From Verrucomicrobiota bacterium (GTDB taxonomy: Bacteria > Verrucomicrobiota > Verrucomicrobiia > JAWXBN01), in the NCBI GenBank assembly GCA_034440155.1, contig JAWXBN010000128.1, forward strand, positions 1 through 43,075: a DNA stretch of 43,075 bases. Reading direction: 5' to 3'. Shown here piece by piece: positions 27,393 through 41,075 of this stretch (positions are counted from its first letter, which is position 1; the number at the start of each line of letters is the position of its first letter). Both the position numbers and the translations under genes were made by a program. The notes under the pieces are model-generated. The model was not told the DNA's origin and made no database searches. It saw only the letters and a program-made list of their open reading frames with translations.

Positions 27393-29639
27393 TTAAGACA
27401 GGTTCACTTTTGGTACCTGTTGGATCTCAAACGGGGCATTAAAGAAGTCGGCCTGCCTGAATCCAAAAAGTTTGGCATAAATGATTTCCGGAATCTTTCC
27501 GCACCGGGTGTTATAATTTTCCACACTGTTATTATACCCTTCCCGCATCAAGGCGATTTCATTTTCCAGTGATGTCAGCGTCCGGGCTGTCTGGCTGAGG
27601 ACTTCGCTGGCTTTTAAATCAGGATAAGCCTCCCTGATAGCAATAAAACTCGTGGTGAAATGGTGCTCTGCCTGTGCAAATTGCGTAGCCTCCGCCGAGG
27701 AGAATTGTTTCTGGCTCCCGAGCAAATTGCGCATTTGGGCCAGGGACTCCTGGACGGGACTTTCGTGCTGGAAATAGGCCTCTGCAATTTGCGTCAGCAT
27801 CGGGACGAGGTCTGCCCGCTTTTTCAGGGACACATCTATATTCGCCCAAGCTTTACGCACCCTTTGCCTCAAATCGACGAGGTCATTAAAGACCAGCACC
27901 ACCATGACGAGGGCAAGATAAGCAACTGGCACTAATCCCGCCAGCAAGAGATTCGACGGGGCAAAGCTCCCCGCAAACCCAAAAAGCATGAGGGCAAAAA
28001 GAATCAGGGTATTAATACTGGTGTTATGCCAGAGGATGGCATCCTTCGCATAATACCGTTTGATTGTCTGTTCTGGTAAGTTCGCCAAGATAAAGGGTTC
28101 CTTCAAATCCGGTTTGGTAATATAAAGGGAGCTCCCTGTGAACGGGTCTACTTGGGCGGCCCCGAGGATATAAGCTTGGTCACCTTCTTGAACCCAATTT
28201 TCCGTGTATCGCATATCACCATCTTTCGAGACAAGCTGGTGATTCGTAAAAATCTTTGCACCCTGGGGGTCCACCCTGATCTGACCGGACTCATCACGGC
28301 AATAAAATATTTTTACTTCTTTGTCATCTTGTAGTGTCACCCACTTGGAGTTTTTACCTGAGCCTTTCTTTTCCTCGACCTTATAATGATAATAACAACA
28401 GGTCTGTCCGCTTAAAGGTCCCACTAATTTCTGGTCATCATCGGCAAATGAAACCACTCCCACAGTCTCGGCGAGTCCGTAGCTGATACCCGCAGGTTTC
28501 GCCGTCGTCACATTGTCGATGAATCGGCGGATACGTAACTGACCAAATCCAAACCACGCTGCTATCAAGGCCACAAGCAGAGCCCCCGCACAAATACTCC
28601 CCGCGAGTAAAAAACTAAAACGAGCTGTTTTCTGTTTCCAACGCAGCTCATTATCCAAGGGATAGTCAACACATGGGAACTGCTTTTCAAATCCTGACAA
28701 CCCCCACATCGGGAGGAAAAGATTTTCCGGAAAAGAGTATAAAGTCTCCCGTGTCCTTTTAGCGGACGCAATGAGCTCACTCCTGATTTCAACGCGCCTC
28801 GGAGACATGGTATTTCCCCACAAAGGCAAACCATCCTCCTTCTGTACCATGAGATCGGCCATTTCTTCCTGGTGCTTTAGTCGTTCCACCGCGGCAATAG
28901 CGTCGCGATGCATCATGGTGTAACCGAAATAAGCCAAAGAGCCGCCTAATATCACCGCCAGCATCACCAGATATACCATGGGCCGATATGCCCCGAGTAT
29001 CCCGCAAAAGACCACCGTCGCCAGCGACCAGCAAACCAATGCCCCCCAGACCATCATCACTCCTTTAAAGACAATCGACACACGCTCCGCCACCTCCGTG
29101 CCCGTGGTAATAATCGGCACATAAACCCCGGGTTCCTGGAATCCAACTTGCAATATCCCCCGCTCATTAGCTTGGGCAAACCCAAAGAGGGTAATGACCT
29201 CCCCTCCCTGCAAATATGTTTCCGTATGCCTGAATTTCCCGTCGATATTCACCTGGTTGCGGGTGAGATTCCATTTAATGCCATCCGTGGGATTAATCAC
29301 GATTTGGCCGGTTTCATCATTCAGGAGGAACGGGACAGACTCCGATTTCCTCTCACGGACTTTCCAGGAAGTGTCCCCATCGGAATCCTTGGTTTCTTCT
29401 TCTAGCGTGTAACTATAGTGGAGGCACGGGGCATGCGTGTAGGGTGTATGAACCTGGGCATTAAAGATTTTCGTCGTGCCGCGCAGGTGGACCTCTCCAG
29501 GAATAACCCCGATGACTTTACCCTCAGGCAACCGGGCCAACTCCCTGGTTTTACGGATGGCATCAAACCCGAACCTTTGAAGGAGGATTCCACCCCCGAT
29601 CAAGAGCAAAGCCATTAAAATGAGAAAAAAAACTTTCAT
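27393..29639 (-). CDS. Membrane protein: two GIDE-like domains fused to LemA
   Basis: This 748-residue membrane protein has three parts. Residues about 1-270 form one GIDE-like unit (N-terminal helix FLILMALLLIGGGILLQ, then APCLHYSYTLEEE and two helices near 195-250). Residues about 340-580 repeat the pattern (helix, AETVGVVSFADDDQKLVGPL, CCYYHYKVEEKKGSG, then two helices). Residues about 590-748 are a LemA domain (FNDLVDLRQRVRKAWANIDV, KKRADLVPMLTQIAEAYF, VENYNTRCGKIPEIIYAKLF). GIDE domains are known from the eukaryotic MUL1/MAPL protein and bacterial membrane proteins. LemA proteins are membrane-anchored helical bundles of unclear role. Fusion of a duplicated GIDE unit to LemA is unusual. 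No RING is present. It is 4 nt downstream of the RbsD/FucU gene. Confidence 0.8.
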   Translation of the reverse strand: MKVFFLILMALLLIGGGILLQRFGFDAIRKTRELARLPEGKVIGVIPGEVHLRGTTKIFNAQVHTPYTHAPCLHYSYTLEEETKDSDGDTSWKVRERKSESVPFLLNDETGQIVINPTDGIKWNLTRNQVNIDGKFRHTETYLQGGEVITLFGFAQANERGILQVGFQEPGVYVPIITTGTEVAERVSIVFKGVMMVWGALVCWSLATVVFCGILGAYRPMVYLVMLAVILGGSLAYFGYTMMHRDAIAAVERLKHQEEMADLMVQKEDGLPLWGNTMSPRRVEIRSELIASAKRTRETLYSFPENLFLPMWGLSGFEKQFPCVDYPLDNELRWKQKTARFSFLLAGSICAGALLVALIAAWFGFGQLRIRRFIDNVTTAKPAGISYGLAETVGVVSFADDDQKLVGPLSGQTCCYYHYKVEEKKGSGKNSKWVTLQDDKEVKIFYCRDESGQIRVDPQGAKIFTNHQLVSKDGDMRYTENWVQEGDQAYILGAAQVDPFTGSSLYITKPDLKEPFILANLPEQTIKRYYAKDAILWHNTSINTLILFALMLFGFAGSFAPSNLLLAGLVPVAYLALVMVVLVFNDLVDLRQRVRKAWANIDVSLKKRADLVPMLTQIAEAYFQHESPVQESLAQMRNLLGSQKQFSSAEATQFAQAEHHFTTSFIAIREAYPDLKASEVLSQTARTLTSLENEIALMREGYNNSVENYNTRCGKIPEIIYAKLFGFRQADFFNAPFEIQQVPKVNLS

Positions 29640-31606: not shown

Positions 31607-33664
31607 ATGATGAGCAGAAAAATCCGTTGGGGAATACTGGGAACAGGAATGATCAGTGATGCACTTGTCCGGGCCATGCCTACAAGTCAAACCGGCATCC
31701 TCGCTGGAATCGCCAGCAGGAACCTATCCAAAGCCCAAGAATGGGTCGAAAAACACGAGCTCAAGGATCCAGTCAGGGCTTATGGCTCTTATGAGGAGCT
31801 ACTTTTAGATAAAAATATTGATGCCGTCTATATCGCCCTCCCAAATAGTGTGCACTGCCAATGGGTCGTGGCTGCTGCATCTGCGGGCAAACATATCCTC
31901 TGCGAAAAACCCCTCGCCAGTAATTATGCAGAACTTATGGTCATGCTGGAGGCCGTCCGTGCTAACGGAGTATTCTTTATGGAGGCATTTATGTGGCGTT
32001 GCCATCCCGGCACTGCCGCCTGGGTCAAGGACATCGAGAATGGAGCCATTGGACAACTCCGTCTCATCGAAGCCCAGTTCTCCTTTAACTGTGGGGAAGG
32101 CTCCTCTAGCAACCGGCTTTCCCGTGAATTATCCTATGGTGGTATCATGGACGTTGGTTGTTATTCCATCAGCGCGGCACGCTTAATCGCTGGGGCAGCT
32201 GCCGGCAAGGAATTTGCCGATCCGGTAGAGTTATCCGCTTTTGCCCATGTAGGGAAATCAGGTGTGGATGAATGGTCCACGGCCATTGCTAAATTCCCCG
32301 GGGACATCATTGCAAACCTTTCCTCCGGGCTCATGGTTACCCTACATAACTCCATCCGGATTTACGGATCTAAAGGCCATATGATTATTCCAAGCCCTTG
32401 GTTCAGCGATGGCAAATACTCCATCCAACTCGATGGACAAGAAATACAAAATTTCGAAGTCACAAGCGACAAAAACCTCTATACCCACGAAGTGGATATT
32501 CTTGGAAACTCAGTCCTCGAAGGCCGCACACAAGCCCAAGCCCCTGCAATGACATGGGCCGACAGTATCAGCCAGCAAAAAGCCCTTGATCAATGGCGTA
32601 AAGCCGCCGGAATCAAATTCCCCGTGGAAGAAGATGATACTCTCAAAAAATCGACCCTCTCGGGAAAACCATTACAATTTGCTTCATCAGATCATATTCC
32701 CATGGGTAAGATCGATGGATTAGACAAACCCTTGAGCCGCGTCATCATAGGGTCGATGTCCCTGCGTTTTGATGACATGGCCTACACCACGGCTATCCTC
32801 GATCACTATTTTGAAAAGGGTGGCAACGGGGCCGATACCGCATGGGTTTATGGTCCAAACTGCGAAAAAGCCCTTGGTCATTGGATCAATTTGCGCGGGG
32901 TGCGTGAGCAATTTGTCATTCTCGGTAAAGGAGCCACTCTGGCATGCACAAACCGGGCCTTCCACGATCCGGGATGTGATCCCGAGACACTGGTCAAACA
33001 ACTCCACGAATCCCTTGACCGTTTGGAAACCGATTATCTGGACATCTATTGCCTTCACAGGGATAACCCCTTGATCCCCGCCAGCGAATTCGTCGACTGT
33101 TTAAATGAACTCGTTCGTGCCGGTCGCATTAAGGTCTTTGGCGGGTCGAACTGGAGCACAGCTCGTATCGATGAAGCCAATGCTTATGCCAAGGCAAAAG
33201 GATTAAAAGGCTTCAGCACGATCAGTAATCACTTTTCCCTCGCCCAATGGAACGAACCGATGTGGGGAAGTTGTTTCAGCTCCTCGGACCAGTCATCTAT
33301 TGAATGGCTCAAAAAAACAGGGATTCCCCTTTTGGCGTGGTCGAGCCAGGCCTCGGGCTTTTTTACAGGGGCCTTTGACCGCGATACTCCGCCGGAGAGG
33401 GATGCCTGGACCCGGGAAGTCTCGCGTGTCTGGTTTAATGAAGGGAACTTCCAAAGGCTTGAAAGGGCACAGGACCTCGCGAAGAAAAGAAATGTCACGC
33501 CCACACAAATTGCTTTGGCATACGTCTTAAACCAGCCCTTTAATTGTTACGCCTTGATCGGGCCAAAAACAATCGAGGAAATCCGGACTTCATTGCTCGG
33601 CATTCATCTGGAGCTTACTCAAGAGGAACTCTCTTGGCTGAACCTCGAAACTAACCACCTTTAA
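31607..33664 (+). CDS. Gfo/Idh/MocA dehydrogenase fused to aldo/keto reductase
   Basis: This 685-residue fusion has an N-terminal half (1-335) that is a Gfo/Idh/MocA oxidoreductase: nucleotide motif WGILGTGMISDALVRAM, then KHILCEKPLASNYAE with the conserved EKP Lys. The C-terminal half (from about 365) is an aldo/keto reductase with ADTAWVYGPN (Asp and Tyr), VILGKGATL (Lys) and DIYCLHRDN (His), a complete catalytic tetrad. One chain could oxidise and reduce successive positions of a sugar or sugar acid. It starts at ATG 31607 (a second ATG is at 31610). It overlaps the convergent anti-sigma gene end by 14 nt. The divergent AraC regulator probably controls it. Confidence 0.9.
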   Translation: MMSRKIRWGILGTGMISDALVRAMPTSQTGILAGIASRNLSKAQEWVEKHELKDPVRAYGSYEELLLDKNIDAVYIALPNSVHCQWVVAAASAGKHILCEKPLASNYAELMVMLEAVRANGVFFMEAFMWRCHPGTAAWVKDIENGAIGQLRLIEAQFSFNCGEGSSSNRLSRELSYGGIMDVGCYSISAARLIAGAAAGKEFADPVELSAFAHVGKSGVDEWSTAIAKFPGDIIANLSSGLMVTLHNSIRIYGSKGHMIIPSPWFSDGKYSIQLDGQEIQNFEVTSDKNLYTHEVDILGNSVLEGRTQAQAPAMTWADSISQQKALDQWRKAAGIKFPVEEDDTLKKSTLSGKPLQFASSDHIPMGKIDGLDKPLSRVIIGSMSLRFDDMAYTTAILDHYFEKGGNGADTAWVYGPNCEKALGHWINLRGVREQFVILGKGATLACTNRAFHDPGCDPETLVKQLHESLDRLETDYLDIYCLHRDNPLIPASEFVDCLNELVRAGRIKVFGGSNWSTARIDEANAYAKAKGLKGFSTISNHFSLAQWNEPMWGSCFSSSDQSSIEWLKKTGIPLLAWSSQASGFFTGAFDRDTPPERDAWTREVSRVWFNEGNFQRLERAQDLAKKRNVTPTQIALAYVLNQPFNCYALIGPKTIEEIRTSLLGIHLELTQEELSWLNLETNHL

Positions 33665-33953
33665 GCAATTCTTTTATCCTCGCCTTGCTTTCAGGAGACA
33701 TTGTCCGGTGGGTTCGTTGGCCGAACTCGAGGGCATTTATCCTGGCTGCTTTGCGCATACCATTTAATTGTCTCTCATAACGTCGGCAGAAGTGACAGGC
33801 AATACCATGAATATGATATTTGATTTTCTCGAATAAAGTCAACCGCCGGTCAAATGATGCTGAAACAATTTGCGTATGCACATCACAAGACATGGCGACT
33901 TTGTCGAGCAACCAAAAAACAGGGGCTACCATTGTTCTGCTAAGATTAATCAC
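33651..33953 (-). CDS. Zinc-finger (zf-HC2) anti-sigma factor of the bufferin-like operon
   Basis: This protein of up to 100 residues lacks a membrane helix. MSCDVHTQIVSASFDRRLTL followed by HIHGIACHFCRRYERQL gives the His-x3-Cys-x2-Cys zinc motif of anti-sigma factors. Start GTG 33953 overlaps the sigma stop (GTGA), and ATG 33893 (MSCDVHT) gives a more typical family length. It is expected to hold the ECF sigma factor inactive until a signal, perhaps copper or thiol oxidation, releases zinc (inference). Last gene of the operon. Confidence 0.8.
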   Translation of the reverse strand: MINLSRTMVAPVFWLLDKVAMSCDVHTQIVSASFDRRLTLFEKIKYHIHGIACHFCRRYERQLNGMRKAARINALEFGQRTHRTMSPESKARIKELLKGG

Positions 33954-34573
33954 TGGTCATCACCTCCGGTGGCTTTTGCAGGAGAGACAAACCAGTTCAG
34001 CTCCAGACAACGCCTCAGTAAAAAGCGGCAGCGGTGCAGCAGTACCCAGAGATTACTCTCACTGACTCCTGTTACCGCACAGATCTCAGATGTATCCAAA
34101 CCGTCAATCTCACGCATGATATACACTTGAGAGGCTTTAACCGGGAGTTTACCGACACATTGCTGTATCACTACCCAAAATTCGCTATTTTCCAGGCACT
34201 GTGAAGGTGATGGTGCCCAATCAGCCGGGGAATGGTTTGGATCTAAATCCCAATGTTTATGCTTATCCATGAGTTCATGGCTACATTGCTCATAAGATTC
34301 ATCCACGGGAATACCCTTGAAACGTGCACCCTTCCTGTAGTGTTCCATGATTTTATTCCTCAAAATACCCGTCAACCAAGTCCTCTGAGTTGAGCGCCCC
34401 TCAAAGGCATCCTTTGACTTTAATGCTGTCAAAAATGTTTCTTGGACAAGATCTTCAGCATTATGTTCCGAGGAGACACGTGACAAGGCATAACGGAATA
34501 GATAATCCCCATGAAGATCCACCCATTGATTCTCATCATTCAAGGGTAGTGGTGTAAATTTAGTGATATCCAT
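33950..34573 (-). CDS. ECF sigma factor of the bufferin-like operon
   Basis: This 207-residue sigma factor has region 2 (YLFRYALSRVSSEHNAEDLV, QETFLTALKSKDAF, TWLTGILRNKIMEHYRK) and region 4 (LPVKASQVYIMREIDGLDTS, then ICAVTGVSESNLWVLLHRCR). A long linker rich in acidic and Pro residues separates them. The 'REIDGLDTSEIC...NLWVLLHR' form is typical of ECF factors paired with short zf-HC2 anti-sigmas. It lies 24 nt after the DoxX gene and overlaps its anti-sigma by 4 nt. It most likely drives its own operon, including the precursor peptide. Confidence 0.9.
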   Translation of the reverse strand: MDITKFTPLPLNDENQWVDLHGDYLFRYALSRVSSEHNAEDLVQETFLTALKSKDAFEGRSTQRTWLTGILRNKIMEHYRKGARFKGIPVDESYEQCSHELMDKHKHWDLDPNHSPADWAPSPSQCLENSEFWVVIQQCVGKLPVKASQVYIMREIDGLDTSEICAVTGVSESNLWVLLHRCRFLLRRCLELNWFVSPAKATGGDDQ

Positions 34574-34597
34574 GAGGCCAATCTTTATCTGTTATTA

Positions 34598-35104
34598 TTA
34601 AGTCTGTGAATATTTTTTACAGGTTTTTCCCCTGATTAATTTATCTAATGAAAGGAACCCCGGGCCGAAAAGAAAAAGAATGACCATGGCCAGAAGAAAT
34701 AAAAATGGGGCCGCAGACATAAAAGGTTCAGGATCTCTAAAAAGCATTCCAAGCTCCTCCCTGTGTGCCGTCAAATAAGCAACAATAAGTGTTCCCATGA
34801 GTGGGATGGAGATCAATCTGGTACCGAGTCCCAAAATAATCAATATCCCCCCGACAAGTTCCAAACACCCCACAAAAGGCGCCTGATATTCGGCAAGAGG
34901 AATCCCAAGCCCCCTAAAAAAGTCAGTGACCTGATCTAAATGCTGTAACTTTCCAAAACCCGTGCGGAAAAAACCATATCCCCAAATAAGCCTGACTGCC
35001 AATAGGAAAAATGATTGGAGCCATGGCATCGCTACCCCTGCTTTTTGGGTAAAATCACACGCGCATGATATGAGACAAACATGTTTTTGATCTTTAAGGT
35101 TCAT
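34598..35104 (-). CDS. DoxX-family membrane protein (Hvf/Buf operon)
   Basis: This 168-residue protein has four transmembrane helices, including LQSFFLLAVRLIWGYGFFRT, FVGCLELVGGILIILGLGTR and APFLFLLAMVILFLFGPG. The family motif GFGKLQHL is followed by an FFRGLGIP loop. Start ATG 35104 has GGGAGG 7 nt upstream and overlaps the DUF2063 stop by 1 nt (TAATG). DoxX proteins are regular members of DUF692/DUF2063 operons, and their role in bufferin production or copper stress is not settled. Confidence 0.85.
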   Translation of the reverse strand: MNLKDQKHVCLISCACDFTQKAGVAMPWLQSFFLLAVRLIWGYGFFRTGFGKLQHLDQVTDFFRGLGIPLAEYQAPFVGCLELVGGILIILGLGTRLISIPLMGTLIVAYLTAHREELGMLFRDPEPFMSAAPFLFLLAMVILFLFGPGFLSLDKLIRGKTCKKYSQT

Positions 35105-35997
35105 TATTTTACCCTCCCTTTTGATTGTTTTGTCCGGCATTCAAGCCAGAGCTCTTTTTTCCATGAAGCAAACCATTTTTTAAAATGAATCAGTAACAGT
35201 TCTCCCTCTGGTAAATCCCGAGGCAAGGCAGTAATAGCATCCCCTAACGTCACCCCTTTAGTAGCAAATTGCTGGAGGCAGCTATACTCCACAAATGACA
35301 TTTCCTTACACCGAACCTGATAAGAAGTCGTTCGATACACAGCAAAGTAACGTTCCTGATTCTCCTTTAATAATAATGACAAAGGCTTTCGCCCACCTTT
35401 CTTCGCCAGTGCAAAAATGCGATCTAGTGGGAAGGATGCCCTCACTAGGCGCACAGACGGGGTGAGATAGAATTTTGCACGAGCAATTTCCTCTTCAGTT
35501 TGAGGAAAGGGTTTGCCGTTGTGTTCTGCCGCATCAAAACTTTCGATCATCGCCCATTCAAGCTCAGCCATGTTACGAGCTGCCAGATGAGTAGGCACTG
35601 ATTGATCTCGGTGCCTGGCGATATACCCGGAAAAATACTTTCCTAATCCCTTTAATGTCCAACATCTTGATGGGATTTTCTTCAGGTATTCATCGACTAG
35701 TTGATGGTAATTTGCTTCACCCAAGATGATGGAAACCCCTTCAAAATCCTCCCTCAATGATTCAGTAATACGGAACCAATACTGTCTGCGATAAATTTCG
35801 AGTCTTTCGACTGCCGTGATCCGTTTACCATCCTTTACCTTCGCCACCGCCTGACGTCCCTGGAATGAAGCCGGCAAATCCGACCCGCGCAAATTGCGCA
35901 TGGAATCTACTCCTTCAAGCAAAGGAACCCTCAAAGCTCCCATCCAAAGCACTTGAGTCTTCTTTAATTTTGATTGTTTAAGCGAAAATTTGCCCAT
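35104..35997 (-). CDS. DUF2063 (HvfC/BufC-like) RiPP partner protein
   Basis: This 297-residue protein carries the DUF2063 N-terminal domain (RITAVERLEIYRRQYWFRIT, ESLREDFEGVSIILGEANYH, YLKKIPSRCWTLKGLGKYFS) and a winged or beta-rich C-terminal part that in relatives helps recruit the precursor peptide to the DUF692 enzyme (family knowledge from HvfC/BufC/MbnC). Start ATG 35997 follows GGAGGG by 8 nt and overlaps the DUF692 gene by 20 nt. An ORF extension to 36039 is less likely. Confidence 0.88.
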   Translation of the reverse strand: MGKFSLKQSKLKKTQVLWMGALRVPLLEGVDSMRNLRGSDLPASFQGRQAVAKVKDGKRITAVERLEIYRRQYWFRITESLREDFEGVSIILGEANYHQLVDEYLKKIPSRCWTLKGLGKYFSGYIARHRDQSVPTHLAARNMAELEWAMIESFDAAEHNGKPFPQTEEEIARAKFYLTPSVRLVRASFPLDRIFALAKKGGRKPLSLLLKENQERYFAVYRTTSYQVRCKEMSFVEYSCLQQFATKGVTLGDAITALPRDLPEGELLLIHFKKWFASWKKELWLECRTKQSKGRVK

Positions 35998-36832
35998 GAA
36001 ACGAACCCTCCAAATATTTTTCGGCTTTCCTCGCTTCATCCCAGACTTCCTCGAAGGTGGGGATTTTATCGTCCCACTCTAATAAAGTGGGGGTCGGACC
36101 GAAAAGCCCGATTGCTTTTTGATACAAGGCCCAGACATCGTCAATTACCGGTGCGTCATGGGTATCTAAAATAAATTTTTGGTAATGAGAATGTCCTGCG
36201 ATATGGATCTGGGCCACTCGTTCTGGAGGAATACCCGTGAGATAGTCGAATGGATTAAATCCGTGGTTAAACGACGAGACATAAATATTATTCACATCGA
36301 GTAATATCCCGCAGTCAGCCATCTCCACGACTTCCGTTAGGAACTCCCATTCCGTCATTGTCGACTCGTGAAATTCCGCATAACTACTGACATTTTCAAT
36401 AGCCACGGGTCTTTCAATATAATCCTGCGTTTGTCGGATTTTTGCGGCAGCAATCCGTACGGCTTCTTTCGTGTATGGAAGCGGTAATAAATCATGGCTA
36501 TATGTCCCGTCCACACTCCCCCAGCAAATATGGTCTGAGACCCAAGGCGCATGTGTCCTTTTCAAAAGTCTTTTTAGTCTCTTTAAATGATCCTTGTTAA
36601 GAGGACCTACTGAACCCGGGTAAAGGGAAACCCCATGCTGAATGACTTGATAATCAGACAGGATCTTGTCGAGGATCGCCAATGGACTCCCCCCATCGCC
36701 CATGTAAGTTTCTGAAATAATCTCAAACCATTCAACCGGCGGTTTTTCACTCAAAATATGATCATAATGCGGAACCCTTAATCCTACACCCACACCGAGT
36801 GTCGAAAATGCATTAAAGCGGTTTGATGACAT
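35978..36832 (-). CDS. DUF692 multinuclear non-heme iron oxidative enzyme (MNIO; HvfB/BufB-like)
   Basis: This 284-residue TIM-barrel enzyme shows the family's metal ligands: His66 (QHGVSLYPGS), His101 (SDHICW), Glu146 (IENVSS), Asp179 (LLDVNNIYVSS), His190 (NHGFNP), His210 and His214 (HIAGH), Asp223/His225 (DTHDAPV) and Glu252 (LEWDD). MNIOs oxidise cysteines of ribosomal peptides to thiooxazoles or oxazolone/thioamides (bufferins, methanobactins). All these residues are intact, so activity is expected. The substrate is almost certainly the Cys-repeat peptide encoded just upstream. Confidence 0.93.
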   Translation of the reverse strand: MSSNRFNAFSTLGVGVGLRVPHYDHILSEKPPVEWFEIISETYMGDGGSPLAILDKILSDYQVIQHGVSLYPGSVGPLNKDHLKRLKRLLKRTHAPWVSDHICWGSVDGTYSHDLLPLPYTKEAVRIAAAKIRQTQDYIERPVAIENVSSYAEFHESTMTEWEFLTEVVEMADCGILLDVNNIYVSSFNHGFNPFDYLTGIPPERVAQIHIAGHSHYQKFILDTHDAPVIDDVWALYQKAIGLFGPTPTLLEWDDKIPTFEEVWDEARKAEKYLEGSFHGQIFA

Positions 36833-36898
36833 GTGATGGTTTGAATTTAAAAAATTAGATAAGAGTGATGAATGAGAAGTTTAACCATGAAAGGTCTG

Positions 36899-36930
36899 AA
36901 AACCCCCTCCCCCATAAACCGAGGAAGGGG
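36899..36930 (-). terminator. Attenuator hairpin between precursor and MNIO genes
   Basis: On the minus strand CCCCTTCCTC (36930-36921) pairs over 10 bp, with two G-U pairs, with GGGGGAGGGG (36913-36904), followed by TTTT at 36902-36899. Partial termination here would make more precursor mRNA than enzyme mRNA, as in many RiPP operons. Confidence 0.65.
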
Positions 36931-36949
36931 TGGATTCTAAATCAAAAAA

Positions 36950-37204
36950 CTACTTTTTTGCACTACATCCATCTTTTGACTTACAACTGTCTTTGTCTTT
37001 ACTGCCATCTTTTGACTTACAACTGTCTTTGTCTTTACTGCCATCTTTTGATTTGCAACCGTCCTTGCCTTTACAGCTATCTTTGCTCTCGAGCTGTTTT
37101 GTCGTACCTGCAATATTATTATCCATAGCCATTACAGCTCCGGTGCTTGCGGTCATTAATCCTGCGATAGCAGCGGCGACGAGAAGGTTCTTATTCATTT
37201 TCAT
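36950..37204 (-). CDS. Bufferin-like RiPP precursor peptide with cysteine repeats
   Basis: This 84-residue precursor has a signal peptide at 1-26 (NKNLLVAAAIAGLMTASTG, cleaved after AVMA), a short spacer (MDNNIAGTTKQLE), then a Lys/Asp/Ser-rich core with five cysteines at residues 44, 50, 62, 74 and 80. The core is built from CKGKDG, CKSKDG and two SKDKDSCKSKDG units and ends CSAKK. Canonical HvfA/BufA2 peptides carry EGKCG motifs; here the cysteine follows DS or DG and precedes K. The start at ATG 37204 has AGGA 8 nt upstream; 37198 is a second in-frame Met. It is the first gene of the Buf-type operon, 117 nt from the MNIO gene. Confidence 0.85.
   Translation of the reverse strand: MKMNKNLLVAAAIAGLMTASTGAVMAMDNNIAGTTKQLESKDSCKGKDGCKSKDGSKDKDSCKSKDGSKDKDSCKSKDGCSAKK
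36969..37076. repeat. 36-bp tandem repeat inside the precursor gene
   Basis: Unit 1 (36969-37004) and unit 2 (37005-37040) are identical. Unit 3 (37041-37076) has diverged. Each encodes twelve residues (SKDKDSCKSKDG or variant) with one or two cysteines. Identical units suggest recent duplication. Confidence 0.9.
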
Positions 37205-37281: not shown

Positions 37282-37310
37282 TAAGTGTCCGGTCAGTGCA
37301 AATCCTTACA
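37282..37310 (-). promoter_or_regulatory. Candidate ECF-sigma promoter of the bufferin-like operon
   Basis: On the minus strand TGTAAGGATTT (37310-37300) and CCGGACACTTA (37292-37282) lie about 80-105 nt upstream of the precursor ATG. The first contains the AAC/AAGG-like -35 flavour of ECF promoters and the second a possible -10. This is a weak call; the consensus for this sigma is not known to me. Confidence 0.3.
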
Positions 37311-37414: not shown

Positions 37415-38830
37415 CTAAAAACGTAACCAACCCCGGGTTTTCATGAAATATAAGACCAGCGCAACAAGCATCGCTGCCCAAAAACAAACATTACCGAGCG
37501 TCACAGGAAAATTTATCCCCTCGACATTCATCCCTAAAAAACCGCCAAGGGCGGTCGGGATAATCGCAATGGCAGTGGCGACCGCCAGTAATCCCATGAA
37601 CCTATTCATCTGGAATGAAATGAGATTCATCCGGAGTTCTAACCCCGAGCTGGTACTATCGTAAAGCTGGTTAAATGCTTCCGCCGTGTAATCACAGGTG
37701 TCCGAAAAGAGATTGTACATCGACGCAAAATCGGGACTGTCGAAGGGGAGCTTGACCTTGCCATTTTCAAGCTTGTCAAAGATATGACGGAGCCGCCACA
37801 AATCCGATTTCATCCCCGCCAGAGATTGCTGGAGGTGATAAATCTTTAAATAAGTCGTGTCCCGTGGACGGTCGAGGGGCAGCATCTCCCAGCCGCGCAA
37901 TTCGCTCTCCAGCCTGGTCGCGATATCTTCATAACGTGCCAGCAAGAGCTTAAACATACCTAGCGTCAGGCGGGCGTGTAAAGGTTGACCCGAAATAAAG
38001 TCTTCAGCAGTCAAAAGTTGGCAAGCCGTATGGACAATTGAATGGTGGTCAGCGGAGACAATGAGAAGGCTTTGTGCCGTACAGACAAAAAGGAAAGGGA
38101 CCGGCTCAATATAAAAATTGAGGGCATCATGTTCCGCGAGGGTAGGTAAGGATCCGGAGAAGACAAATGTGCTGCCTAACCGGGAAATACGGGGGTAGCT
38201 GGTCTTCGCCAAAGCACTTTGAATAAATGAAGCCGGCATGGACGGGGTGGCCAAGCTTTCCGCTAGCAAACCTGAATCATCAAAATCGGCACAATAACTC
38301 CCCACGCGGACGGGGTCACTCATCCAAGCCACAAAATCATTTTTACTCAGGTCGACAAATGACACGGTCTTGTCTGAACCGACCTCTAACCGGTGAAATC
38401 CAATTTCCCCGGAACCACCATGCGCATCAAGAGACGTATCCGGAAGCAGAAGCTCGCGGGTACTGCGGTACCCAAAAAAAAGAATCGGTGTCAGTCTCAA
38501 GAAATGGAGCGCCGCACTATGGACAAGCATATCCGAGACACTGGGCAGGAGTGAAAGTAAACACAGGGAGATAATCCCGATATCTAATAAACGCCTGACC
38601 GTAAAGATATACTTCGCCTTCTGCTTCGAAAGACAAAAGGAAGCGAGGTACTCAATCGCAAAAACAAAAATCACACCATACTGAACGGTTTTGCAAACCT
38701 CCCTCCACTCTAAGTCCGTGGTAAAAAAAACATCCTGGATAGCCAGTGCCAAGGCGAATATCGCAAGAACCCCTTGATTCTCATCCCTCAACAGCCGCTT
38801 CACTTTTTCAGCCAACTTTCTGATATTCAT
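37415..38830 (-). CDS. CorA-family transporter with N-terminal voltage-sensor-like domain
   Basis: This 471-residue membrane protein ends with the CorA pore module: a long helical domain, then FLGLLAVATAIAIIPTALGG-like first pore helix (MGLLAVATAIAIIPTA), the GMN signature in GGFLGMNVEG, and a second helix (VCFWAAMLVALVLYF) near the C-terminus. The N-terminal 130 residues resemble the S1-S4 helices of ion channels (VFAIEYLASFCLSKQKAKYI, TVRRLLDIGIISLCLLSLLP, LHFLRLTPILFFGYRSTREL with an S4-like Arg pattern). Cation transport (Mg, Co or Zn) is expected. It lies 210 bp upstream of the precursor gene on the same strand, though the gap is large enough for separate transcription. Confidence 0.75.
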   Translation of the reverse strand: MNIRKLAEKVKRLLRDENQGVLAIFALALAIQDVFFTTDLEWREVCKTVQYGVIFVFAIEYLASFCLSKQKAKYIFTVRRLLDIGIISLCLLSLLPSVSDMLVHSAALHFLRLTPILFFGYRSTRELLLPDTSLDAHGGSGEIGFHRLEVGSDKTVSFVDLSKNDFVAWMSDPVRVGSYCADFDDSGLLAESLATPSMPASFIQSALAKTSYPRISRLGSTFVFSGSLPTLAEHDALNFYIEPVPFLFVCTAQSLLIVSADHHSIVHTACQLLTAEDFISGQPLHARLTLGMFKLLLARYEDIATRLESELRGWEMLPLDRPRDTTYLKIYHLQQSLAGMKSDLWRLRHIFDKLENGKVKLPFDSPDFASMYNLFSDTCDYTAEAFNQLYDSTSSGLELRMNLISFQMNRFMGLLAVATAIAIIPTALGGFLGMNVEGINFPVTLGNVCFWAAMLVALVLYFMKTRGWLRF

Positions 38831-39089: not shown

Positions 39090-41075
39090 TTAGAGTTCGC
39101 CGCGGCGCATTTTGTTATAGGTGGCCAGTGCCAAGAGAGGCCAGCTGAGGCGGTAGAAATCGTATTTCAGGTAGAATACCCTAGGGAAACCTGTCCCGGT
39201 AATCGCATCCTCTTTCCATTCTCCGTTAGGTTCTTGTGTTTGGATGAGATATTCGATTCCTTTGCGGATACTATCACGGTCGAGGTCACCACAGGCACAG
39301 AGTCCCATGAGTGCCCAAGCCGTTTGTGAGGGTGTGCTCTGTCCTTGTCCACGGGTCGTCGGGTCTTCATAGGTATGACAGCTTTCTCCCCAGCCTCCGT
39401 CATCATTTTGGCAACTTTCCAGCCAGTCACGGGCGCGCAAGACCCAGTCCTGCCTCATATCAATGCCCAGATAAAACAGACCTCGCAATACCTGCCAAGT
39501 GCCGTAAATATAATTCACACCCCAACGTCCATACCAAGAACCATCTTCTTCCTGAGTGTCTTTGAGGTATTTGAGGGCTTTGCGAATATTCGGGTGATTC
39601 TGGTCCCAATGGAATAATCCGCACATTTCCAAGATGCGTGCCGTGATATCGCTACAGGACGGATCGAGAATCGCATTATGGTCCGCAAACGGGACGTCCT
39701 CGAGCCAGGACTTCATGACATCCTTGTCAAAAGCCGCCCACCCACCGTCTGCACATTGGAAACTCATGATAAAACGACTCCCCCGTTTGATCGCCGCGGC
39801 TTTATCGTTTTCACGGGTGAGGGTCTTGACCCGGTCGAGGGCCATGAGCACCATGGCCGTGTCGTCCACATCGGCATAATGTTCATTGCGGAATTCAAAG
39901 GCCCAACCGCTGGGTTCGGCGGAGGGATTCTTATGGACCCAATCACCTTTGATTTTAATTTCATTATCCAGTAACCACTCAGCTGCCCTGGACAGCTGGG
40001 GATGGTTCTCAGGTACTCCGGATTCACGTAGGGCAATCAGCGCGATAGCCGTGTCCCAGACCGGGGAAAGGCATGGTTGGATTCTGAAATCATTATTCTG
40101 CGTATCGTTAACGTAGAGCTTTTCAATCGCCTTGATCGAGCTGACCAACCAAGGATGATCCTCAGGATAACCCATTGCCTGCATGGCAAAAACTGAAAAA
40201 AGGGTACTCGGGAAAATCCCCCCTATCCCGTCGGCTTTCTCGATACGTTCACCCATCCATGCTTCACACTTTTTAATGGCCTTGCGACGGAGGAATTTGA
40301 TCGGGTGGTTATTATAAGCTATCAGGATTTTATTCACGAGCAGGAATCCATTACGCAGGCTAAAAAGCTTTTTACTCCGTTTGAGGGAAAGATCGCTATT
40401 TTCCGTGCCGACCGGGAAAAGCTCATGGAGCTGCATATTTGTCGGCAAAACGCGGGTGGGCTTTAGGTCATTAATAATCGCCAGAGGGATGACGATAGCC
40501 CGGCTCCAAGAGGAGATTTCGTAAATATTAAAGAAAAGCCAATCAGGCAGGAGAATGATTTCCGGGGGGATCGCCGGGATATGTTTCCATGGAAATTGCC
40601 CGATCAGGCCTAAGGCCAGCTTCGCATAGGTATTACATTTCGGGATGCCACCAAGACGTAAAATATTATTACGGGCATGTTTCATGAGGGGTTCTTCAGC
40701 TTTGTACCCCGCTAATTTCAGGGCGGTATAGGCCTTGATACTCGCATTGATTTCACTCGGTCCTCCTGGATAAATCGTCCATCCACCATCTTGTAACTGC
40801 CTGTCCAATAAATGCTTAACCAGCTTATCTTTCAGTACGGGATCGACCTTATCCTGCCAAACCATCCAGATCATGAGGTCACTGGCCAAAGTGGTATCCA
40901 CAAATAACTCCCCGCACCAGTATTTCTCCTCCAGCTGAAGCTTTAAAATATGATCCTGGGCGAGTTTCATGGCCGTATCGACTTTTTGCTCGATACTCGG
41001 AAGAGAGATAATATCAGGTTCCTTCAGTGTTGTCCGTACTTGGGAATGAGATTCAGTGTTGTACTTTAAAGCCAT
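39090..41075 (-). CDS. shc: Squalene-hopene cyclase
   Basis: This 661-residue terpene cyclase converts squalene to hopene/hopanol for membrane hopanoids. The catalytic DxDD appears in HYADVDDTAMVLMALDR. Several QW repeats are visible (RQLQDGGWTIYPGG, SFQCADGGWAAFD, DTQEEDGSWYGRWG, SCQNDDGGWGESC, QTQEPNGEWKED). It is a single gene here, without hpn neighbours. The start at ATG 41075 follows a CAAATTGC motif in the leader. The 168-bp gap to the aminotransferase is AT-rich and holds nothing else visible. Confidence 0.96.
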   Translation of the reverse strand: MALKYNTESHSQVRTTLKEPDIISLPSIEQKVDTAMKLAQDHILKLQLEEKYWCGELFVDTTLASDLMIWMVWQDKVDPVLKDKLVKHLLDRQLQDGGWTIYPGGPSEINASIKAYTALKLAGYKAEEPLMKHARNNILRLGGIPKCNTYAKLALGLIGQFPWKHIPAIPPEIILLPDWLFFNIYEISSWSRAIVIPLAIINDLKPTRVLPTNMQLHELFPVGTENSDLSLKRSKKLFSLRNGFLLVNKILIAYNNHPIKFLRRKAIKKCEAWMGERIEKADGIGGIFPSTLFSVFAMQAMGYPEDHPWLVSSIKAIEKLYVNDTQNNDFRIQPCLSPVWDTAIALIALRESGVPENHPQLSRAAEWLLDNEIKIKGDWVHKNPSAEPSGWAFEFRNEHYADVDDTAMVLMALDRVKTLTRENDKAAAIKRGSRFIMSFQCADGGWAAFDKDVMKSWLEDVPFADHNAILDPSCSDITARILEMCGLFHWDQNHPNIRKALKYLKDTQEEDGSWYGRWGVNYIYGTWQVLRGLFYLGIDMRQDWVLRARDWLESCQNDDGGWGESCHTYEDPTTRGQGQSTPSQTAWALMGLCACGDLDRDSIRKGIEYLIQTQEPNGEWKEDAITGTGFPRVFYLKYDFYRLSWPLLALATYNKMRRGEL

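Follow-up and report, generated by a model that had tools for sequence, protein, structure and literature searches.

A six-gene operon in the 43,075-nt stretch of Verrucomicrobiota DNA analyzed here (the window) probably encodes an autoregulated Cys-Lys bufferin/captophorin system, in which Cys residues of an exported repeat peptide would become copper-sequestering 5-thiooxazoles under the control of a stress-released sigma factor. It is a variant of the known bufferin/captophorin systems and not a new kind of system. The features of the operon are as follows.

37282-37309, minus strand: predicted ECF promoter, GTAAGGATT-N12-ACACTTA, located ~105 nt 5' of the precursor start
36950-37204, minus strand: precursor (bufA-like) of 84 amino acids; precursors of the same build adjoin the MNIO gene in relatives
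37127-37204, minus strand: predicted Sec signal peptide, MKMNKNLLVAAAIAGLMTASTGAVMA, with the cleavage site predicted by eye and AAIAGL common with relatives
36965-37075, minus strand: core of hexads [C/S]KxKD[G/S] in the order C-C-S-C-S-C-C, defined by the register test and the tandem repeat
36902-36931, minus strand: RNA hairpin between the precursor and MNIO genes, 11-bp stem ACCCCTTCCTC/GGGGGAGGGGGT, tail TTTC
35978-36832, minus strand: MNIO (DUF692) of the bufferin-maturase type (PF05114, NF050167; LEWDD)
35104-35997, minus strand: DUF2063 partner (PME-type 1, BufC-like; PF09836 and predicted fold)
34598-35104, minus strand: DoxX-family membrane protein (HvfX-like; PF07681, NF050144)
33950-34573, minus strand: ECF sigma factor, TIGR02943-like (Pfam sigma70 r2 and r4)
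33651-33953, minus strand: soluble ZAS anti-sigma factor, C23-x25-H49-x3-C53-x2-C56

All six ORFs occupy positions 33651-37204 of the minus strand in the order precursor, MNIO, DUF2063, DoxX, ECF, and ZAS anti-sigma factor. The MNIO and DUF2063 genes overlap by 20 nt, DUF2063 and DoxX by 1 nt, and the ECF and anti-sigma genes by 4 nt, while DoxX and the ECF gene are 24 nt apart. This bears out the single overlapping unit proposed in the initial annotation, along with its assignment to the bufferin/Hvf-type RiPP operons, as the MNIO motifs are intact and an ECF/anti-sigma pair is embedded. The complete gene set recurs in two further genomes of the class. The rest of the genome contains no second MNIO gene. 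A PHROGs search gave no match, and sigma-70 promoter and stock terminator scans gave matches at shuffle level.

The five Cys of the precursor (residues 44, 50, 62, 74, and 80) all fall in one hexad register, with Ser56 and Ser68 at the other two of the seven Cys positions, and in four of the five cases Lys follows Cys directly, while the last Cys stands in CSAKK. Six hexads were observed in the core versus a mean of 0.10 and a maximum of 3 in 20,000 core shuffles, and the core DNA is a 36-nt tandem repeat (36969-37084, 3.2 copies, 91% matches). The precursor contains no EGKCG motif. The earlier description of a five-Cys, EGKCG-free precursor therefore stands, but not its reading as five separate motifs. 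EGKCG had also been taken as the modified motif of both HvfA and BufA2, which holds for HvfA and fontiphorin but not for BufA2, a member of its own 6/12-Cys family (PMC12452194). Since a large "Cys-Lys" precursor group that includes BufA2 has been described (PMC13097082), the DGCKSK and DSCKSK contexts fit that group and are not the non-canonical core they had seemed. Several Cys-Lys motifs, combined with an MNIO that carries Asp after its catalytic Asp, are the marks of a Cys-Lys captophorin, and by its sequence the precursor belongs to this class.

The BufA2 model NF050166 (cutoff, 60 bits) did not match the precursor at an E value of 0.1. Precursors of relatives scored 46.1, 23.6, 19.0, and 16.8 bits against it, all below the cutoff, with the hexad relatives at 16.8 to 23.6. 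Matches of the precursor to Pfam CD20 (15 bits versus a cutoff of 27.9) and NCBIfam CctA (22.4 bits versus 180) were rejected as low-complexity noise. A search of the genome for a second precursor with the CKxKD DNA pattern gave just scattered single matches outside the operon, at control level. CKxKD-hexad precursors lie beside related MNIO genes elsewhere (for example, loci L093, L094, L098, L099, L174, L012, L013, and L018), while Ser hexads were found in no other genome among the relatives compared. Core types among these systems include the 6-Cys domain, CKGKDG hexads, Cys/Ser hexads, DDCPGK repeats, and two-Cys peptides.

Cys-repeat precursors are kept beside the enzyme in relatives, and therefore the objection that such an ORF might not be conserved there fails. 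Low complexity and the lack of a close homolog at the exact sequence could suggest a chance frame or a decaying gene, but the strict register relative to shuffles, the common signal-peptide motif, and the recurrence of the gene at this position in dozens of relatives make this very unlikely. It is also improbable that the precursor is exported unmodified as a Cys/Lys-rich metal-binding peptide while the MNIO acts on a target elsewhere. Some bufferin precursor genes do occur without an MNIO gene (PMC12452194), and the core is of low complexity and unlike the BufA2 model; however, the precursor gene lies directly 5' of the only MNIO gene in the genome, and the placement is the same in relatives, whose cores change fast while the signal peptide is conserved.

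The MNIO scored 356.9 bits against Pfam PF05114 (cutoff, 25) and 350.7 bits against the NCBI model NF050167, MNIO_BufB (cutoff, 310), which places it among the bufferin maturases; against PRK05409 it scored 251.9 bits (cutoff, 360). Its structure model has a pLDDT of 83.5. Within the stretch aligned to 3bww, the motif residues are those of 3bww, in agreement with the earlier statement that the MNIO ligands are intact. In the LEWDD motif, Asp254 is catalytic and Asp255 is the predicted selectivity residue. Asp at this position is the residue reported for Cys-Lys MNIOs (PMC13097082), whereas the HvfB-type 3bww reads LERDF, with Phe at the equivalent of Asp255. With no EGKCG and Asp in place of Phe, the operon falls outside the HvfA/oxazolin class. 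Oxazolin/HvfABC and fontiphorin resemble the window in enzyme superfamily, partner type, and DoxX but have EGKCG pentads and Phe at the selectivity site, and FonBC failed to process the Cys-Lys substrate NACKG (PMC13097082). The relation between Asp and Lys is imperfect: C-K substrates are also paired with enzymes that have Ala at this position, and in family f4 seven enzymes with Asp (L109 and L181-L186) are paired with GSCxxC peptides lacking C-K. Within one family, Gly at the selectivity position is accompanied by Pro after every Cys (26/26).

The start of the DUF2063 partner is uncertain because its ORF is open from 36039. The protein scored 48 bits against PF09836 (cutoff, 27.2) and 18.3 bits against NGO1945_C, below the cutoff of 27. 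A phmmer search for a solved structure gave no match, but the fold of its AlphaFold2 model (pLDDT, 85.3) matched 3dee (E value of 1.7e-6, 222 columns) and TglHI. PF09836 and the 3dee match together indicate the RRE-type C-terminal domain of captophorin and bufferin partners. DoxX scored 68 bits against PF07681 (cutoff, 23.6) and 71.9 bits against NF050144, below 80.

Bufferin 2 (BufA2/Buf_6/12Cys) and the Cys-Lys captophorins (PMC12452194, PMC13097082) are like the window system in having a Sec signal peptide, regularly spaced C-K, an MNIO whose catalytic Asp is followed by a second Asp, a DUF2063 partner, and DoxX. Unlike bufferin 2, the window has a pure hexad repeat with two Ser hexads instead of a 6-Cys domain, no NF050166 match, and an ECF/ZAS pair; sigma genes have been reported for Buf1 clusters, not Buf2 clusters (PMC12452194). 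Bufferin 1 with a sigma factor and NrsF shares the bufA-bufB-bufC order and ECF control, but its precursor is a DUF2282 protein with four Cys and its anti-sigma factor is NrsF, not ZAS.

We propose that the conserved signal peptide is where the MNIO and the DUF2063/RRE protein bind the precursor and that each Cys in the CKxKD hexads would be oxidized by four electrons to a 5-thiooxazole, while the Ser hexads would stay unmodified and act as spacers. Sec would export the peptide to the periplasm, where it could sequester copper and possibly further thiophilic metals, and DoxX may assist from the inner membrane. The thiooxazole chemistry, the number of modified Cys, the copper role, and the inducing signal are what we infer here. 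5-Thiooxazole is present in every characterized MNIO-PME1 product, and these products are generally Cu binders (PMC13097082). An alternative ring or oxidation, such as an oxazolone-thioamide dictated by the Cys-Lys-x-Lys-Asp context, deserves little credence. The BufA2 product structure was not solved, with just a mass loss per Cys and a UV spectrum that match bufferin 1 (PMC12452194), but the oxazolone-thioamide first assigned to oxazolin was revised to 5-thiooxazole (PMC13097082), and the MNIO reached 41.7 bits on the methanobactin model (cutoff, 325), far below its BufB score. For the question of how MNIOs choose and count cysteines, the core provides a substrate of great simplicity, built from one hexad with either Cys or Ser.

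A Cys-rich precursor with a predicted Sec signal peptide immediately 5' of the MNIO gene is typical of captophorins and bufferins. The signal-peptide motif is much better conserved than the core among relatives, and in its strict form it occurs in 49 of 65 precursors of the class versus 0 of 69 other signal-like N termini. This conserved motif is apparently previously unreported. The gap between the precursor and MNIO genes folds as a whole at z = −2.6, and folding of the gap sequence detected a hairpin of −20.5 kcal/mol. A strong hairpin is found in this gap at 93% of 61 loci, compared to 30% in shuffles and 40% in other gaps. It is likely a partial terminator or an mRNA stabilizer, is apparently also unreported, and would allow precursor transcripts to exceed enzyme transcripts.

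A tentative reading, somewhat short of an even chance, is that the signal peptide (AAxAGL) serves as the BufB-BufC leader and frees the core to vary, that the enzyme follows core changes via the residue beside its catalytic Asp, and that the hairpin sets the precursor-to-enzyme ratio. The leader and attenuator roles are inferred. The comparisons yield three general claims that can be tested, namely that the signal peptide acts as leader, that the residue following the catalytic Asp acts as selector, and that the gap hairpin is attenuator-like. If the tentative reading is true, the window holds a natural low-complexity substrate, with unmodifiable Ser built in, for an enzyme stepping along a repeat; if the hairpin holds, bufferin expression work should allow for it.

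The ECF protein exceeded the cutoffs of both Pfam sigma70 r2 and r4 and fell slightly short of TIGR02943 (161.9 versus 162.2). The anti-sigma factor scored 44.3 against NF052368, slightly short of the cutoff of 50, with the C-x25-H-x3-C-x2-C spacing complete; its listed start is GTG, with an internal ATG at 33893 (MSCDVH...). PMC2893595 gives an identical spacing for NMB2145 and RsrA, and this spacing, with the adjoining ECF gene, identifies a neisserial-type soluble anti-sigma factor. The ECF proteins of relatives were collected by iterated HMM searches. The pair lies within the operon at L108 (same order) and L174 (A-DoxX-ECF-ZAS-MNIO-DUF2063), and the L174 and window ECF factors are of the same family. 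A pair that probably forms the operon's own sigma/anti-sigma switch, as had been suggested, is thus embedded, but such a switch is not new in kind, since the autoregulated operon NMB2140-2145 of Neisseria meningitidis has the same six-gene content, with a ZAS anti-sigma factor (PMC2893595). The neisserial sigma-E operon (NMB2140-2145/NGO1948-1943, gonophorin; PMC2893595, PMC13097082) resembles the window in its six genes in one operon, anti-sigma Cys/His spacing, and −35 element, but it has DoxX first, a Lys-Cys rather than Cys-Lys precursor, and a different −10 element; the identities of NMB2141-2143 were deduced in this analysis from NGO1945 = NgoC. ECF/ZAS-controlled bufferin operons are known from Neisseria, and the window adds a case with another class of precursor in another phylum.

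In the resting state, the cytoplasmic zinc anti-sigma factor would hold the ECF sigma factor, and oxidative or thiol-reactive metal stress would alter the Cys/Zn center of the anti-sigma factor and release the sigma factor. It is possible, though on balance unlikely, that the product of the operon deals not with copper but with another stress, by binding zinc, gold, or mercury or in response to hypochlorite or disulfide stress. The closest regulatory analogs are tied to redox: in Haemophilus influenzae, the ECF factor RpoE2 governs hvf-type genes when hypochlorite is present (PMC7907618), and msrA/msrB belong to the meningococcal sigma-E regulon (PMC2893595). Some bufferin operons contain gig genes induced by gold or fusions with MerC (PMC12452194), and no obvious copper gene was seen adjoining the window operon. 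Copper remains favored, as characterized MNIO-PME1 products are generally copper binders (PMC13097082) and bufferin 1 gives copper protection (PMC12452194).

The freed ECF factor would initiate at the predicted GTAAGGATT promoter, and the whole operon would therefore be amplified. The −35 element agrees fully with the neisserial sigma-E consensus GTMAGBWTT (PMC2893595), while the −10 element, xxACTxA (CGACTAA in relatives), matches neisserial CGTCTAAH (spacer of 12 to 13) at 4 of 8 positions. Across the 2.76-Mb genome, GTAAGGWTT-N12-13-NNNCTNA was matched once, at this site 5' of the precursor gene, and the reversed-pattern control gave 0 matches. TGTAAGG also lies 5' of the precursors at L008, L012, L013, and L018, and a ZAS gene is present at all four.

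The six-gene operon of the initial annotation is real and well described, and an ORF check across 33651-37204 found its coordinates and gene overlaps correct. The operon and its elements are as follows.

33651-37204, minus strand: six co-directional genes for the precursor, MNIO, DUF2063 protein, DoxX, ECF sigma factor, and zinc anti-sigma (ZAS) factor
36902-36931, minus strand: hairpin between the precursor and MNIO genes (11-bp stem, -20.5 kcal/mol)
Before the precursor gene: predicted ECF promoter, GTAAGGATT, 12 nt, ACACTTAT

Each part of the claimed novelty is largely known: the non-EGKCG cysteine context as the Cys-Lys precursor group, and the private sigma switch from Neisseria. New here are their combination, the register of Cys and Ser hexads, and the features that emerged from comparison. 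The modification, a copper role, and the inducing signal are predicted from the behavior of characterized relatives.

The window MNIO scored 350.7 bits on the curated bufferin-maturase model (cut-off, 310). In phmmer-aligned stretches, QHG, SDH, IEN, LDVNN, HIAGH, DTH, and LEWD match the motifs of 3bww, a solved HvfB-type MNIO, giving the same candidate metal ligands. The DUF2063 partner is divergent (46.6 bits versus a cut-off of 142 on the HvfC model). The partner nonetheless has PF09836, and among PDB structures its AlphaFold2 model (pLDDT 85.3) resembles 3dee and TglHI.

The residue after the catalytic Asp is Phe in Lys-Cys (EGKCG) enzymes and Asp in Cys-Lys enzymes (PMC13097082). 3bww likewise has Phe (LERDF); the window MNIO has Asp (LEWDD). 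Among Verrucomicrobiia loci (class loci), C-K makes up on average 68% of Cys per locus with Asp enzymes, and C-P occurs in 26/26 with Gly enzymes, a correlation rather than a set of independent counts because the loci are related. As exceptions, Ala enzymes also meet C-K, and seven Asp enzymes of one MNIO family (f4) meet no C-K. In one family (numbered loci L111, L114, L116, L117, L177, and L180), long precursors of DDCPGK/DDCPDK repeats, with Pro after each Cys, accompany an enzyme with Gly at this position (LEWDG). In another (L109, L181-L186, and L118-L121), very short cores (GSCGQCSSKK or SCKGKQSCKGK, C-terminal CWC/CC) adjoin Asp-type enzymes.

The window precursor (84 aa) carries a Sec-type signal peptide, and its low-complexity tail of 46 residues can be divided into [C/S]KxKD[G/S] hexads in the order C-C-S-C-S-C-C, with all five Cys congruent modulo six. 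Six hexads were observed, against a mean of 0.1 in composition shuffles. The core DNA is a 36-nt tandem repeat, and each Cys/Ser hexad pair therefore probably arose by duplication. Of the 23 precursors that have two or more Cys hexads, the window's alone has Ser hexads. Edaphobacter precursors (L002, L003, L005, L006, and L062) resemble Buf2 domains that have lost two of six Cys (KHSCKGKNDCKGQGGGKHPGKNDCKGKGGC).

MNIO matches at E <= 1e-40 were found in 73 of 384 sampled class genomes, including the window's own, which is the sole member of its order among the genomes compared. Identity within the class reaches about 70%, and relatives also occur in named Verrucomicrobiota, Acidobacteriota, and Planctomycetota. 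Precursors adjoin these related MNIOs; the Cys-repeat ORF, whose lack of conservation beside the enzyme the initial annotation had named as refuting its reading, is conserved there. Core types include the 6-Cys Buf2 domain (most precursors), pure CKGKDG hexads, hexads plus the 6-Cys domain, DDCPGK repeats, and short peptides of two to four Cys. The hexad type requires seven changes on the MNIO tree, at least five forced by starred branches, so it was gained or lost repeatedly, and the core types are therefore not separate enzyme families. The window branch is long and its placement uncertain.

Nearly all these operons have a strong hairpin between the precursor and MNIO genes (the window and 87 related loci). 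Hairpins of <= -15 kcal/mol occur in 93% of 61 class loci (30% of dinucleotide shuffles) and in the same share, 93%, of 27 loci belonging to other groups (25% of shuffles). Among 81 same-strand gaps elsewhere the share is 40% (Mann-Whitney p of about 1e-16, which is too small because related loci are not independent). Stem sequences vary from family to family. Neither a hairpin nor a terminator is named in the main texts of two bufferin papers searched for them, and the gap hairpin is apparently unreported. Its plain reading is a partial terminator that would keep the precursor in excess; mRNA stabilization is the alternative.

The window anti-sigma factor carries C-x25-H-x3-C-x2-C, spacing identical to that given for NMB2145 and RsrA (PMC2893595). 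NMB2140-2145 is an autoregulated operon of DoxX, three then-unknown genes, rpoE, and a ZAS gene (PMC2893595). NgoC, a DUF2063 protein (PMC13097082), is NGO1945 of the corresponding gonococcal operon, so the neisserial sigma-E operon has the same gene set as the window operon. In Neisseria the promoter consensus reads GTMAGBWTT, 12-13 nt, CGTCTAAH (PMC2893595). The combined -35/-10 pattern had one match in the 2.76-Mb genome, upstream of the precursor, with the weight on the -35 because the -10 part was relaxed after the site was seen. L008, L012, L013, and L018, all of which have a ZAS gene, likewise carry TGTAAGG upstream of the precursor. L108 has all six genes in the window order; L174 has all six, but with DoxX-ECF-ZAS between precursor and MNIO.

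Of 71 class loci, 20 have an ECF gene of some kind nearby. GGAATAA, another ECF-like -35, stands upstream of the precursor in 29 of 68 class loci, where chance would give about 0.018 per locus, which points to a different sigma factor over many bufferin operons of the class. It is followed by a TCT/TCC-AY-like -10, mostly 80 to 150 nt before the precursor (e.g., L100, L112, L115, and L150). With these two counts, the statement that Buf2 clusters are without sigma genes (PMC12452194) does not seem to hold in the class group studied.

The motif [AG][ASVL][ALIVFM][AST]G[LIM] occurs within the first 32 residues of 49/65 class precursors, picked without use of the motif, versus 0/69 signal-like N-termini of other proteins on the precursors' contigs. 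This conservation is consistent with preliminary data that in Buf1 the recognition sequence includes the signal peptide (PMC12452194).

Downstream, a plus-strand gene (31607-33664) for a Gfo/Idh/MocA oxidoreductase fused to an aldo/keto reductase converges at its 3' end with the anti-sigma gene, overlapping by 14 nt. Immediately upstream of the operon lies a CorA-like transporter with an ion-channel-like N-terminal membrane part (37415-38830, minus strand). Also on the minus strand are a single protein with GIDE (E3-ligase-like) and LemA domains (27393-29639) and a squalene-hopene cyclase (39090-41075).
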